Shown: piece after piece, positions 4,797 through 35,859 of the stretch
Layout of the letters: the number at the start of each line of letters is the position of its first letter
Numbering within the stretch: position 1 is the stretch's first letter
IMG/VR virus record: IMGVR_UViG_3300007735_000672
Coordinates: 1 to 35,859 of that record
Reading direction: 5' to 3' (one strand)
Length of the DNA stretch: 35,859 nt
From: a virus
Position numbers and translations under genes: made by a program
The notes under the pieces: model-generated
Databases searched by the model: none
Seen by the model: the letters and a program-made list of their open reading frames with translations, nothing else
What the model was told of the DNA's origin: nothing

Positions 4797-5090
4797 ATGG
4801 CATACGCTCGGAAAGTAGATGTTAACCAAGCAGAAATAGTAGAAACCCTAAGAAAAGCTGGGGCTGATGTATATATTCTATCAAGTGTTGGAAAAGGAAT
4901 ACCTGACTTGATGGTGTGCTTTAATGGCGAAACTATCTTGATGGAAGTCAAGCGTGATGCAAAGGCAAAGTTCACCAAAGACCAACTCAAGTTTATTGCG
5001 AACTGGAAAGGTGGCCCACTTAGTCGGGTTGATAGTTCTGAAGCTGCCCTACGAGCGATTGGATTAATCCGTGTTAATGACCAATCTTAA
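4797..5090 (+). CDS. VRR-NUC domain nuclease
   Basis: The protein has 97 aa, the usual size of a stand-alone VRR-NUC domain. E13, GIPDLMV (P36-D37), MEVKR (E50-x-K52) and Q63 form the PD-(D/E)XK core of this family, whose members act as Holliday-junction or flap nucleases. No Shine-Dalgarno precedes the ATG, and a -10 box at 4779-4784 would give a leader of only about 6 nt. It is the first gene of the long rightward block and overlaps the methyltransferase start. Confidence 0.87.
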   Translation: MAYARKVDVNQAEIVETLRKAGADVYILSSVGKGIPDLMVCFNGETILMEVKRDAKAKFTKDQLKFIANWKGGPLSRVDSSEAALRAIGLIRVNDQS

Positions 5091-5751
5091 AACCACCGAA
5101 TACAACCAAGACTACTATGACGAGCATAAAGATGCTGGTTTAGATTATCTTGGGCATGGCTACTGGCAAGAAGAATACGCCAAAATGGTCGTAGAAGCCT
5201 GTAAAACACCCCGTGACGGCTTTGTAGTCGATGCTGGGTGTGCGTGTGGTTCTATCTTAAAAGGCTTCCAAAAACAGAATATGAGGGTTTTAGGGGTAGA
5301 TTTGAATCCACACATGATTGGGTTGGGTCGTACCCATTTTGGGTATTATGCCCATGAGCTACATTGTGGCTCAATTTCTGATACACCAGCCCTAACCGAA
5401 AGCGTGGATTTGGTGCATACCGCTCAAGTCTTAGAACATATCCCACAAGAACACATGGATGCCATACTTCAAGAATTTTCAAGAATTATCAAGAAAACAG
5501 GGCGTGTGTTTGTTTGCTTAGACGCAATTAAGGATGGCGAAACCAAAGAAATGTATATGGGTGACCCAACCCATGTCAATATTCAGCCCACCGATTACTG
5601 GACTAAGCTCTTTGCCAAGCATGGATTTGCGTTTGACCGTGAAGCTTATGACAGATTTGTGCGGTCTAACTACAAACCAACAGCCGACAAAGACAACAAC
5701 TTTTTTACCGAATATCCGTATTGGAGTGTGTGGATTTTGCAAAAAACCTAA
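5077..5751 (+). CDS. SAM-dependent class I methyltransferase
   Basis: The protein has 224 aa from ATG 5077; GTG 5071 would add two residues. It contains motif I VDAGCACG (residues 51-58), the acidic ribose-binding GVDLNP (73-78), and a motif IV-like SVDLVHTAQVLEHIP, as in the UbiE/methyltransferase type 11/25 fold. The substrate is not evident: there is no NPPY/DPPY motif of amino-DNA methylases and no PC motif of C5 methylases. Small-molecule, tRNA or surface-glycan methylation are all possible. It overlaps the VRR-NUC gene by 14 bp. Confidence 0.8.
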   Translation: MTNLKTTEYNQDYYDEHKDAGLDYLGHGYWQEEYAKMVVEACKTPRDGFVVDAGCACGSILKGFQKQNMRVLGVDLNPHMIGLGRTHFGYYAHELHCGSISDTPALTESVDLVHTAQVLEHIPQEHMDAILQEFSRIIKKTGRVFVCLDAIKDGETKEMYMGDPTHVNIQPTDYWTKLFAKHGFAFDREAYDRFVRSNYKPTADKDNNFFTEYPYWSVWILQKT

Positions 5752-6813: not shown

Positions 6814-6962
6814 TGGAACACATGAACCGTAAGTTTCCTAAAGGCAACGAATTACTACGCCCCCATAAAGAAACCACATTAGAGAAAAACCAAAAGATGC
6901 GTGAGCGTAGAAAAGCCATGCTAATGAAGCACTTTAATAAGTTTCAAAAGGATATGGCGTAA
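6813..6962 (+). CDS. Very small basic protein
   Basis: The protein has 49 aa. The ATG overlaps the TAA of the previous gene, and its own TAA overlaps the next ATG (TAATG on both sides), so it is tightly coupled. It is rich in Lys, Arg and Met (KNQKMRERRKAMLMKHF). Function is unknown. Coupling and codon use support it as real despite its size. Confidence 0.6.
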   Translation: MEHMNRKFPKGNELLRPHKETTLEKNQKMRERRKAMLMKHFNKFQKDMA

Positions 6963-8020
6963 TGGCTACATTACCTGAGCTTCTAAGGCTTCAGGGTGGT
7001 GCTTATGTGGGTTACCCCCAAATGCCGAATAAAACCGTGCCACAGCCGCAAGGCGGGTACGCTGAGGGCTTTTTATCGTCAGCCGCAGGATTCCCACAGC
7101 AGCCTGATATGTCAGTTCTTGACCAAAATCAAGCCGCTTACCTTGCGGGCCGCCAAGCTGGTGAGCCTGTCAATATTGCTACGATGGCTGCCCCTGCCGC
7201 ATTATTAGCAAATACCCTTAGAAAAGCTCCTAAAGCTGTAACTCCAGCATTAGATGAATACGGTATGCGTTTGCAAACCCGTTTAGAAAAAGATTACCCA
7301 AGTCTTATTGAGCAATACAAAGCCATTAAAGATTCGCAGGGCGGCAAAGTATTAAATACTGATATAGCACGGGAACTTAGCGAAGATTATTTAAAAAACC
7401 GCACATTATCAGCCAGCGTACATGAACCAGCTAGTTCGTTTATTAAACGCTATTACTCTGAATTGCTGGCAAAACCCCCCGCAGAAGGAGCAAGGGTATT
7501 GTTTACTGGCGGTGGTACTGGTGCTGGTAAGACATCATCTCTTGGAGAAACCTTGCCAAATGTGGCTAGACAAGCTGAATTGGTTTATGACACCAATATG
7601 AACAAGCTTGAATCAGCCCGCAAAAAGATTGACCAAGCCTTAGAATCAGGCCGCAAAGTTGACCTTGTATATACATATCGTGACCCCGTAGAAGCTTTAA
7701 GAGAAGGTTCTTTAACACGGGCTATGCGTCAAGTTAAAGAAATAGGAACAGGCCGTACAGTACCTTTAAAAGAGCATATTCGCACCCATGTAGGTAGTAG
7801 AGAGGTTATGCCGCAACTAATGGAGATTTACAAAGACAATCCTAATGTGCGTATGGCTGTGGTTGATAACTCATTGGGCAGGGGTCAAGCTCGTATATCT
7901 AGCCTAGAAAATCTGCCGCAAATTAACACAAAAACCCTAGAGAAAGACTTACGCAAGGCTTTAGAAGAAGAATTCAAAGCTGGTAAAATAACTAAGGAAG
8001 TGTATGAAGCAAGCAAATAA
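6962..8020 (+). CDS. Zeta-toxin-like P-loop kinase with virion-protein-like N-terminus
   Basis: The protein has 352 aa. Residues 1-80 are Gly/Pro/Gln rich and resemble the N-termini of phage polyvalent or ejected proteins. Residues 90-175 are helical. A Walker A GGGTGAGKT (183-191, K190) follows VLFTG, then a VDLVYTYRDPVEAL segment (about 233-246) and a conserved ALREGSLTRAM region typical of zeta-toxin-like kinases in polyvalent proteins. Zeta toxins phosphorylate UDP-activated sugars; the substrate here is unknown. It lies just before terS and may be packaged and injected. Alternatives are a generic AAA/kinase-like NTPase or a domesticated toxin. Confidence 0.68.
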   Translation: MATLPELLRLQGGAYVGYPQMPNKTVPQPQGGYAEGFLSSAAGFPQQPDMSVLDQNQAAYLAGRQAGEPVNIATMAAPAALLANTLRKAPKAVTPALDEYGMRLQTRLEKDYPSLIEQYKAIKDSQGGKVLNTDIARELSEDYLKNRTLSASVHEPASSFIKRYYSELLAKPPAEGARVLFTGGGTGAGKTSSLGETLPNVARQAELVYDTNMNKLESARKKIDQALESGRKVDLVYTYRDPVEALREGSLTRAMRQVKEIGTGRTVPLKEHIRTHVGSREVMPQLMEIYKDNPNVRMAVVDNSLGRGQARISSLENLPQINTKTLEKDLRKALEEEFKAGKITKEVYEASK

Positions 8021-32324: not shown

Positions 32325-32365
32325 TTAAGTTATCTTAATTATAATCCTATTAGGATAAACCCTAA
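32325..32365 (-). promoter_or_regulatory. Leftward promoter with operator and second palindrome
   Basis: On the minus strand, TTAGGG (32360-32365), a 16-bp spacer and TATAAT (32338-32343) form a promoter for the small leftward cluster. The palindrome TTAAGTTATCTTAA (32325-32338) abuts the -10 and covers the start point. A second perfect inverted repeat, ATCCTA-T-TAGGAT (32344-32356), fills the spacer. Repressor binding at either would block the polymerase. Confidence 0.62.
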
Positions 32366-34542: not shown

Positions 34543-34571
34543 ATATTAAGACAATTTAAGCAAATGTGCAA
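34543..34571 (-). promoter_or_regulatory. Leftward early promoter with operator in the spacer
   Basis: On the minus strand, TTGCAC (34566-34571), 17 bp and TAATAT (34543-34548) make a good sigma70 promoter. The near-palindrome TTAAGACAATTTAA (34546-34559, plus strand) occupies the spacer and the edge of the -10, so a bound repressor would occlude polymerase. Confidence 0.7.
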
Positions 34572-34576
34572 ACTAT

Positions 34577-34612
34577 TTGAATGTGCGTTGTATTTTTGTT
34601 AAACTGACTTAA
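34577..34612 (+). promoter_or_regulatory. Promoter and operator of the HTH gene (leaderless)
   Basis: TTGAAT (34577-34582), a 17-bp spacer and TAAACT with an upstream TG (34600-34605) predict a start near 34611-34612, the A of the ATG. TTAAACTGACTTAA (34599-34612) is an operator-like palindrome covering the -10 and start. No ribosome site exists. Confidence 0.68.
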
Positions 34613-34851
34613 TGAAGAAGAAAAAAGTGTTTACCGATAGCCAAATTATCGAGTTACTAGGTGGCCCTACCAAAATAGCCAAAATCTGCAAAATAAGCGT
34701 GCCTGCGGTATCTATGTGGAAAAACACAGGAATCCCCGCAGATAAGCTGGTTTACTTGGGGGCTTTGTTAGAACAGGAATCTAAAGGGCTAGTGACCCGA
34801 AAAGACCTATTTCCTGATTCGTACTCCTTAATTTGGCCTGAGTTGCGTTGA
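34612..34851 (+). CDS. Cro/YdaS-like HTH transcriptional regulator
   Basis: The protein has 79 aa. The HTH reads IIELLGGPTKIAKICKISVP then AVSMWKNTGIPADK (about 12-46), with recognition helix VPAVSMWKN. The C-terminal VTRKDLFPDSYSLIWPELR is typical of YdaS/Cro-like phage repressors. There is no Shine-Dalgarno, and the promoter places the start point on the ATG. It is divergent from the SSB operon like a lambdoid control switch, but no CI or integrase partner exists. It probably represses its own gene and the early promoters. Confidence 0.85.
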   Translation: MKKKKVFTDSQIIELLGGPTKIAKICKISVPAVSMWKNTGIPADKLVYLGALLEQESKGLVTRKDLFPDSYSLIWPELR

Positions 34852-34864
34852 GCCAAATTTTTTT
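34830..34864 (+). terminator. Intrinsic terminator of the HTH gene
   Basis: AATTTGGC (34830-34837) pairs with GCCAAATT (34852-34859) around a 14-nt loop that contains the stop codon (34849-34851). T58 to T64 form a seven-base T run. The 5' arm is inside the coding region, so termination and translation end may influence each other. Confidence 0.65.
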
Positions 34865-34872
34865 GTTATACT
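34843..34872 (+). promoter_or_regulatory. Promoter of the intergenic RNA
   Basis: TTGCGT (34843-34848), an 18-bp spacer and an extended -10 TGTTATACT (TATACT 34867-34872) lie in the tail of the HTH gene and its terminator. The stretch TTTTTGTTATACTGAC closely resembles TTTTTGTTAAACTGAC of the HTH promoter, so both may respond to the same protein. Predicted start is about 34879. Confidence 0.6.
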
Positions 34873-34878
34873 GACATT

Positions 34879-35003
34879 GCAGATTCGTACCTGCTTGCTT
34901 TAAGTCGGTAAGACCCTATAGGGTTGCTTTGAGCGTTTTGGTAATGCTACCGATTCATTACCTAAGCGGTACGAACTTAGAGCAACCTTATGGGGTTTTT
35001 CTA
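34879..35003 (+). ncRNA. Predicted structured small RNA with long stem and crossing helix
   Basis: No protein frame fits this stretch. Bases 34913-34933 pair without interruption to 34976-34996 (21 bp, four G-U pairs). Inside, GGTAATG (34940-34946) pairs with CATTACC (34956-34962). TTCGTACC (34884-34891) is complementary to GGTACGAA (34968-34975), which lies within the big loop, giving a pseudoknot or an alternative fold. The outer stem runs into TTTTTCTATTT, an intrinsic terminator. With the upstream promoter this forms a complete transcription unit of about 125 nt. I recognise no known RNA class. Confidence 0.6.
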
Positions 35004-35007
35004 TTTC

Positions 35008-35096
35008 TGCCATGAGGAAAGAGAAAACACCAGTTTTCTTTGTTAGAGAGTTGATGTTTTCTTTTTCTTCTTTGTTTGGTCTTTCCTGAATTGGCA
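35008..35096. other. Noncoding region with nested inverted repeats
   Basis: TGCCA (35008-35012) can pair with TGGCA (35092-35096), GGAAAG (35016-35021) with CTTTCC (35081-35086) and AGAAAACA (35022-35029) with TGTTTTCT (35055-35062). A competing hairpin AGAAAAC/GTTTTCT (35022-35028/35033-35039) has a 4-nt loop and U-rich tail. The region is strongly purine/pyrimidine biased. It could be a structured leader, second terminator or origin element; no gene is seen. Confidence 0.4.
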
Positions 35097-35116
35097 GGGT
35101 ATCTTCTCAAATCTTT

Positions 35117-35132
35117 GGGGGGGTAGGGGGGG
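35117..35132 (+). other. G-tract G7-TA-G7, potential G-quadruplex
   Basis: Two runs of seven G separated by TA allow four GGG tracts with 1-2 nt loops on the plus strand. No other G-run of this length was noticed in the window. It lies in noncoding DNA between the structured RNA and the early promoter. Confidence 0.6.
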
Positions 35133-35163
35133 TTTGTAGTTTGTTTCTTGTTTGTTCTTTTAA

Positions 35164-35260: not shown

Positions 35261-35289
35261 TTGCAATTAATGTTAAGTTAGCTTAATCT
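35261..35289 (+). promoter_or_regulatory. Rightward early promoter with perfect operator
   Basis: TTGCAA (35261-35266), 17 bp and TAATCT (35284-35289) precede the early operon beginning at 35324. TTAAGTTAGCTTAA (35273-35286), with perfect half-sites, sits across the spacer and -10, the same arrangement as in the leftward early promoter. Confidence 0.7.
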
Positions 35290-35323
35290 ATGTATGTTGA
35301 TTGATTTTTTTAAAGGGGGATTT

Positions 35324-35859
35324 ATGAAATACATCAGCGTAGTTGATACAGCAAAGTTAATTAGATTGGCTCTCAAAGAATCGTTTGCTGGCGTTAAGTT
35401 CAGCGTCAAAAGTAGTTCGTATGCTGGCGGTGCTTCAATACGGATTTCGTATGTTGACGGCCCGACTGTCAAGCAAGTCGAAGAAGTTGTTAGCGTGTTT
35501 GAGGGTTCGTATTTTGACGGTATGCAAGATTACAAAGGTCAAAATTACGCCAATCTTGACGGTGAAGAAGTTAAATTTGGTGCTGACTTTGTGTTTGTTA
35601 ACAGAAAATTGACAAGTGCGTTTTTAACTGGCGTAATTGTTGATGTGTGTGAACAATACGGTTTAGACAACGAAGTTACTGTTTATGTCAGTAGTTATGA
35701 CAATGCAGCCAGCATTAGCAAAGTTTCTGAAAATGCTGACAGTTCCAAAAGAGGTTTTACTCCTTACGATATTCAAAGAATTATTTGTAACAAAGTAGCA
35801 GAAACAAGCTTGTGCGATACGGCAGTTAGCAAAACGGCTGCACGGGTTTACAGCATGGG
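35324..35859 (+). CDS. LPD29-like domain protein (N-terminal part; continues at base 1)
   Basis: The ATG at 35324 follows AAAGGGGGA. The frame runs to the window end and continues at bases 3-173, giving about 193 aa after removing the repeated 127 bp. The N-terminal KYISVVDTAKLIRLALKES, then GVKFSVKSSSYAGGASIRIS and FDGMQDY match my recall of LPD29, a domain of polyvalent proteins in phages and conjugative elements. Here it is a stand-alone early protein. The biochemical role is unknown; antirestriction or host-takeover functions are suggested for the class. Confidence 0.82.
   Translation, partial: MKYISVVDTAKLIRLALKESFAGVKFSVKSSSYAGGASIRISYVDGPTVKQVEEVVSVFEGSYFDGMQDYKGQNYANLDGEEVKFGADFVFVNRKLTSAFLTGVIVDVCEQYGLDNEVTVYVSSYDNAASISKVSENADSSKRGFTPYDIQRIICNKVAETSLCDTAVSKTAARVYSM
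35733..35859. repeat. Right copy of the 127-bp terminal direct repeat
   Basis: These bases are identical to 1-127 and lie inside the LPD29-like gene, where a natural terminal repeat would be less expected. This supports an assembly overlap of a circular map. Confidence 0.93.

Follow-up and report, generated by a model that had tools for sequence, protein, structure and literature searches.

A conserved structured RNA with two crossing helices, maintained by complementarity, in the early region of a freshwater phage and its relatives

The DNA analysed in this study, hereafter the window, is the 35,859-base IMG/VR virus record of a freshwater phage (IMGVR_UViG_3300007735_000672). On its plus strand lie genes for Terminase_6, a portal, a major head protein and an endolysin, and near the right end there are leftward genes for exonuclease-like and ssDNA-binding-like proteins. 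The region upstream of the terminase, at 6962-8020 and 5071-5751, encodes a protein that resembles zeta toxins (Pfam E 1e-7) and a methyltransferase. A structured RNA, termed RNA1 here, lies between a YdaS/P22-Cro-like HTH gene and the first of the rightward early ORFs, which spans about 35294-35857 and continues further. The features of this region are the following:

34612..34851, plus strand: YdaS/P22-Cro-like HTH gene of 79 aa, neighbour of RNA1 (Pfam YdaS_toxin, E 4.8e-8; PHROG transcriptional repressor)
34864..34872, plus strand: extended -10 promoter element, TG-T-TATACT, with TATACT at 34867-34872 (sequence)
34877..35003, plus strand: RNA1, structured early RNA of ~125 nt with a U-tract at its end (fold, CM, covariation)
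34879..34894, plus strand: hairpin H1 (GCAG/CTGC), stem 34879-34882/34891-34894, loop holding segment a
34884..34891, plus strand: segment a, TTCGTACC, in the H1 loop, partner a' (covariation)
34902..34909, plus strand: segment b, AGTCGGTA, immediately 5' of P1, partner in the apical loop (permutation test)
34910..34933, plus strand: 5' strand of P1, the predicted terminator stem (covariation)
34934..34968, plus strand: P2/P3 hairpin with a 9-nt apical loop, P2 34934-34938/34964-34968 and P3 34940-34946/34956-34962
34948..34955, plus strand: segment b', TACCGATT, in the P3 apical loop (permutation test)
34968..34975, plus strand: segment a', GGTACGAA, in the 3'-side bulge between P2 and P1 (covariation)
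34976..34999, plus strand: 3' strand of P1, which enters the U-tract 34996-35000 (covariation)
35007..35097, plus strand: RNA2 slot, filled in the window by a long hairpin with CTGCCA/TGGCAG as its closing pairs (fold z -8.0 for 34877-35125)

From 5' to 3' the segments of RNA1 follow the order a, b, P1, P2, P3, b', P3', P2', a', P1'. The a-a' and b-b' helices are mutually nested, each of them crosses P1, and the first base of a' is also used by P2. The RNA at 34870-35003 has a minimum free energy of -54.7 kcal/mol (z -6.4; dinucleotide shuffles reach -31.3 +/- 3.7), and RNA1 in the window scores 152 bits with the covariance model R1. The opposite strand, taken as an RNA, folds more weakly (z -3.4). 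We assign RNA1 to the plus strand because the invariant G-U pairs of P1 would be A-C on the minus strand, and because both the U-tract and the -10 box lie on the plus strand. The first-pass annotation of this DNA had proposed an extended -10 promoter at this place, together with a 21-bp main stem, an inner 7-bp hairpin and an 8-bp helix that crosses the main stem. All of these elements are present: the promoter reads TG-T-TATACT, the main stem is contained in the 24-bp fold 34910-34933/34976-34999, the inner hairpin is that at 34940-34946/34956-34962, and the crossing helix pairs 34884-34891 with 34968-34975 (TTCGTACC/GGTACGAA). Absent from that annotation were H1 around a, the second crossing helix b-b', the P2 helix and the structured element downstream.

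Transcription of RNA1 would start at about 34877-34879. Among 118 homologues, a -10 hexamer with at least four of six matches is found in 112, nearly always 6-7 nt 5' of H1; TATACT stands 6 nt ahead of H1 in 77 of them and TATAAT stands at 6-7 nt in 24. No conserved -35 element was seen across the homologues, and the only promoter features that remain constant among relatives are the -10 box and its 6-7 nt spacing to H1. It had been suggested that this promoter copies that of the HTH gene, and within the window the two do share 16 of 22 bases, but the resemblance is not conserved in relatives. At the other end of the RNA, the stable hairpin P1 is conserved and directly joined to a U-tract, an arrangement that points to an intrinsic terminator and agrees with the earlier proposal that the main stem doubles as one. 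The U-tract (34996-35000 in the window; four or more U) is kept in every aligned member of the type A RNAs and in most members of a second type, type B, which is described below.

By scanning IMG/VR we recovered 64 loci with the HTH protein and 80 with a leftward 208-aa protein. By blastn, most of these loci retain the RNA segment, including some with an insertion of several hundred bases up to about 1 kb between the HTH gene and the RNA. A degenerate DNA pattern of the RNA core matches at least 119 viral contig stretches and has one match among 84,980 bacterial and archaeal genomes. This single match (L259, JAURIG010000133.1) is a 3.5-kb contig in a Bacteroidota MAG that carries the phage HTH region and is probably a misbinned virus. 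At least 116 distinct RNA1 cores were gathered from viral contigs. An apparent duplication of RNA1 on contig 3300047557_000594 was set aside, its copies being ~35.2 kb apart, near one genome length, which makes an assembly wrap-around likely. Among the pattern matches listed, 79 of 114 loci have an HTH homologue 5' of RNA1, and the nearest HTH copies stop ~50-70 nt ahead of the RNA1 core. Many HTH-less loci, such as L152, L154, L158, L174, L186 and L205, have an ORF with 'KDLFGIFDILAIGNGETVAIQLTSKSN' 5' of RNA1, which, judged by eye, looks like a PDDEXK-type nuclease; RNA1 thus moves between genomic contexts. The window also contains TTAA-N6-TTAA sites at the HTH promoter, at the early promoter and elsewhere (34599-34612, 34546-34559, 35273-35286 and 32325-32338). 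There are five of these versus 2.3 expected, a number reached by 11 of 100 shuffles, and they are possible, if weak, candidates for operators of the HTH protein.

In Rfam 15, no family reaches its gathering threshold over RNA1, either in the window or in the 20 relatives examined, the best permissive matches being far under threshold. When the window RNA is compared by plain blastn with phage and plasmid records, the matches are weak and scattered or absent, and plasmids give none at all. The first-pass annotation had spoken of an undescribed structured RNA gene, and the lack of an Rfam match, the strong covariation presented below, the fixed -10 spacing and the conserved U-tract all argue for this view. 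We are almost certain that RNA1, which had not been catalogued before, is a conserved structured RNA.

Covariation was analysed in a MAFFT alignment (A1) of 82 dereplicated RNAs. Over H1, a-a', P1 and P2/P3 together, 98.1% of the cells hold standard pairs, and 20 pairs show two-sided changes, in 412 cells; shuffles give 134 +/- 8 such cells and slid controls 35-50. In H1, 99.7% of cells are paired and one pair shows two-sided change; such changes are found in 6 of 7 pairs of a-a', in 5 pairs of P1 and in 8 of 12 pairs of P2/P3. The commonest classes at two a-a' positions are A-U (40) and U-A (35) at the one, and C-G (35), A-U (24) and G-C (22) at the other. We also applied a tree-based test in the manner of R-scape, with substitutions randomly re-placed along the branches of a FastTree tree, an APC-corrected G statistic and 100 null alignments. 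Ten pairs reach E < 0.05, every one of them a predicted pair; four belong to a-a', three to P1 and three to P2/P3. The main stem and the crossing helix therefore both covary among the 82 homologues, covariation being the check that had been named at first pass. At the expense of one P2 pair, a-a' could gain an eighth pair; in 22 of 82 RNAs this eighth pair is broken, whereas the P2 pair is intact in all 82. This disfavours a fully nested a/b fold without P2/P3, and a and b are thus best seen as kissing contacts that exist alongside H1, P2 and P3. Other candidate helices were rejected as well. An outer helix, P0 (34879-34883/35006-35010), is weak, with ~93% of cells paired yet just 3 two-sided changes; a local hairpin in the 5' strand of P1 never varies in sequence and is hence uninformative; and a local hairpin in the 3' strand of P1 has its outer pair broken in 30 of 82 RNAs, the base tracking its P1 partner instead.

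The second crossing helix is formed by b, in the linker just 5' of P1, and the complementary b' in the apical loop of P3. Because its register varies between RNAs, we used an alignment-free test, in which linker and apical segment were scored by their best complementary run and the 52 apical-loop types were permuted 2000 times. The RNAs' own score is 18.5 versus a permuted mean of 11.8 (sd 0.37, maximum 13.3), so that every permutation is exceeded. The end of b lies -1 to 6 nt from P1 in 82 of 82 RNAs. As far as natural variation can tell, these results show that complementarity maintains each of H1, P1, P2/P3, a-a' and b-b', and that the knotted shape of RNA1 matters. Complementarity and covariation of this kind fit pairing within one chain and pairing between two copies alike.

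The kissing segments also change in concert. Over 154 positions, the RNA1 of L154 and that of L174 show only four differences, which fall in a and a' (two each) and are fully compensated, and the flanks of the two are alike (94% over 655 nt upstream and 88% over 300 nt downstream, as sequence-matching ratio). Similarly, 4+4 compensated changes in a/a' distinguish L195 from L200, which are otherwise identical over about 97 nt; their flanks differ, and recombination that swaps the core may contribute to this case. Such comparisons suggest that the kissing letters change quickly and jointly while the backbone is held.

At the same locus, some relatives (L012, L020, L021, L029, L039, L121, L125 and further loci) carry a type B RNA, which has the same topology without evident sequence similarity to type A. 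In L121, for example, H1 reads TCGAG-CGTGGAAA-CTCGA and the partner of its loop is TTTCCACG, on the 3' side of the inner hairpin; AAGGCTAC serves as b and GTAGCCTT, in the apical loop, as b', and P1 ends in a U-tract. The H1 stem sequences of type B differ from those of type A, and their position is equal. When 17 type B RNAs were tested, their own b-b' score was exceeded by 0 of 3000 permutations; for a-a', for which type B offers only six types, 30 of 3000 permutations reach the own score, ties included. The presence of a sequence-dissimilar RNA of equal topology at the same locus adds to the comparative support for RNA1. A divergent third RNA1-like element lies on the minus strand of L127 (2776-2936; CM 49.8 bits), with H1 CTGATGCAG/CTGTAATCAG and a TTCTCTCC facing a' GGAGAGAA. 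This element shows no clear b-b', and a search pattern for this third type gave no matches.

Directly 3' of RNA1, alternative sequences of roughly 90-310 nt occupy the RNA2 slot, and no promoter is evident between RNA1 and RNA2. Examples in relatives are found at L161:1506-1710, L253:1796-2030, L166:1650-1954 and in L204. Rfam family RF02932 (Betaproteobacteria-1) occupies the slot in L161, L137, L146, L222, L232 and L252. It is distinct from RNA1, with no overlap with the RNA1 core; in L161 the match covers 1511-1636, 3' of the core at 1411-1480. The RNA2 of this type resembles an unannotated intergenic stretch after the primase gene of Acidovorax phage AP1 (L260, OM049504.1 11939-12000), and no RNA1-like sequence is evident upstream of that stretch. 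RNA2 class IV has two-sided changes in 15 of 31 predicted pairs and no Rfam match, class I has them in 6 of 19 pairs, and class III is a further occupant of the slot. A pairing of a' with class III (GTCGACACC in L259) was dismissed as coincidence, the stretch being constant in class III whatever a'. On the 3' side of the RNA2 hairpin a G-rich tract, GGGGGGGTAGGGGGGG, is found at about 35117-35133 of the window and also in L173, L180 and L074. Since the same RNA1 stands ahead of different RNA2 classes, RNA1 and RNA2 are modular, and since class I is preceded by type A in L166 and by type B in L012, the two types appear interchangeable. RNA1 had been placed at first pass ahead of an early operon. 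It does precede an early ORF, but what follows RNA1 directly is a slot of interchangeable RNA cassettes, and RNA1 does not sit directly on one conserved early operon.

With about 24 bp in P1 and about 12 bp in P2/P3, the hairpin of RNA1 makes a ~36-bp rod. The rise of an RNA helix is 2.8 A per bp, and in such a model b' would be some 100 A away from b once P1 is complete, a distance that a gap of 6 nt or less would be too short to span. With b at the foot of P1 and b' at the opposite tip of the rod, a single chain should not be able to hold b-b' and a complete P1 together, and this incompatibility in cis means that either the RNA switches between a nascent pseudoknot and a terminator or two copies pair with each other. 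P1 and b-b' are thus two conserved folds that are mutually exclusive in cis, and an arrangement in trans would satisfy both too. This bears on the view of RNA1 as a constitutively made small RNA, or as a compact terminator, in which the kissing helices do no more than stabilise the fold or block nucleases, and a and b drift neutrally under compensation. Such a view agrees with the promoter and the terminator that flank RNA1, and a purely structural role needs just complementarity without sequence conservation. However, it does not account for two helices that should not form jointly in one chain, nor readily for several RNA pairs that differ solely in a/a', which is unusual for drift, and we therefore consider it quite improbable.

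We tentatively propose that the main job of RNA1 is gated termination, a proposal to which we give slightly less than an even chance. In the nascent RNA, the H1 loop (a) would bind a' and b would bind the P3 apical loop (b') while the 3' arm of P1 is still absent. Completion of P1 at the U-tract would then have to break b-b', and the contest between a/b and P1 would set the release of RNA1 against continued transcription into the RNA2 cassette. A second RNA with matching a/b segments could shift this balance in trans. In full-length RNAs P1 is on average 12.0 kcal/mol more stable than an enforced nested a/b fold, the a/b fold is within 1 kcal/mol of the optimum in 68 of 82 RNAs when cut right after a', and the optimum passes to P1 at 8-20 nt (median 13) past a', the first U of the U-tract being at 20 nt; these are equilibrium, pseudoknot-free energies without kinetics, which indicate only a possible competition near the decision point. 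A helix between the linker and P2 that would lengthen the antiterminator was not significant (185/3000). Against gating we count that the terminator already wins at equilibrium ahead of the U-tract and that the RNA2 cassettes vary independently of RNA1. The switch between termination and readthrough, raised already at first pass, is nevertheless a plausible proposal, to which the second crossing helix lends weight.

The same helices could be satisfied between molecules if RNA1 forms a homo-oligomer, in which the 5' arm (H1 loop a, and b) of one terminated molecule clamps a' and b' of another. For example, two ~36-bp rods could join reciprocally into an antiparallel dimer, in which all covarying helices would coexist and the changing letters of a and b would serve as a self-recognition code. 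Every helix covaries, including the stem of H1 whose loop is used, b is unable to reach b' of its own chain after P1 is complete, and a and a' change jointly while the rest stays constant (L154/L174 and L195/L200), all of which would be expected of such an oligomer. A precedent is provided by GOLLD and ROOL, whose kissing contacts were first read as tertiary from covariation and were found by cryo-EM to be intermolecular (PMC12286853). In GOLLD, which is a phage RNA, as well as in ROOL and OLE, the contacts detected by covariation are bridges between copies (PMC12286853). The covariation and spacing of RNA1 are compatible with intermolecular kissing contacts. Like RNA1, these are structured RNAs with no known role and with covarying kissing contacts, and GOLLD and ROOL occur in phages and prophages; they differ in being much larger, whereas RNA1 is without an Rfam match and has its own terminator hairpin. 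On the other hand, RNA1 is small beside the known cages, and the switching of a/a' may partly reflect recombination that swaps the core between flanks. We regard the homo-oligomer as somewhat unlikely and favour the switch over it. Kissing loops that covary between phages are also known from the phi29 packaging RNA, a phage RNA of ~120 nt; RNA1 differs from it in that its phage has a Terminase_6 large subunit and in that RNA1 adjoins early regulation.

Pairing in trans is likewise central to the idea that RNA1 is an immunity or incompatibility factor like P4 CI or the c4 RNA of P1/P7, the latter being the same kind of system. Here a/b of a resident RNA1 would pair with the nascent a'/b' of a superinfecting relative and fix termination, and variation in a/b would lead to hetero-immune groups. 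The two short complementary stretches in each transcript, the fast compensated variation of a/a' and the adjoining repressor-like gene would suit such a role, and the CI RNA of phage P4, which pairs with two complementary stretches and causes termination, is a precedent both for this role and for the gated termination proposed above (PMC4825925). The likeness extends to an untranslated phage RNA with two complementary stretches in the transcript, tied to premature termination, and to specificity borne by these stretches. In contrast, the P4 RNA is processed and pairs with seqA and seqC in the leader up- and downstream, whereas RNA1 holds both halves in one compact terminator RNA, and no sequence relation of RNA1 to P4 CI or P1 c4 RNA was found. 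No integrase was seen among the window proteins scanned, the genome collection yielded only the MAG contig mentioned above, and plasmids yielded no match. A resident state is thus not evident, and we consider an immunity role very doubtful.

In summary, RNA1 represents a new RNA family for which the comparative evidence is unusually strong: more than 100 different natural variants are at hand, and its two crossing helices show compensated changes. As a/a' and b/b' are re-coded jointly in nature, orthogonal natural pairs exist, and swaps between them could separate the cis-switch, dimer and immunity models. The early region in which RNA1 lies is a hotspot where phages swap noncoding RNA cassettes as they swap genes. 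We may speculate, although we hold it to be unlikely, that RNA1 is a self-recognising phage terminator RNA whose re-writable kissing code tells self from non-self among co-infecting phages. If this is true, a self-recognition RNA would stand ahead of a slot for interchangeable structured RNA cassettes.
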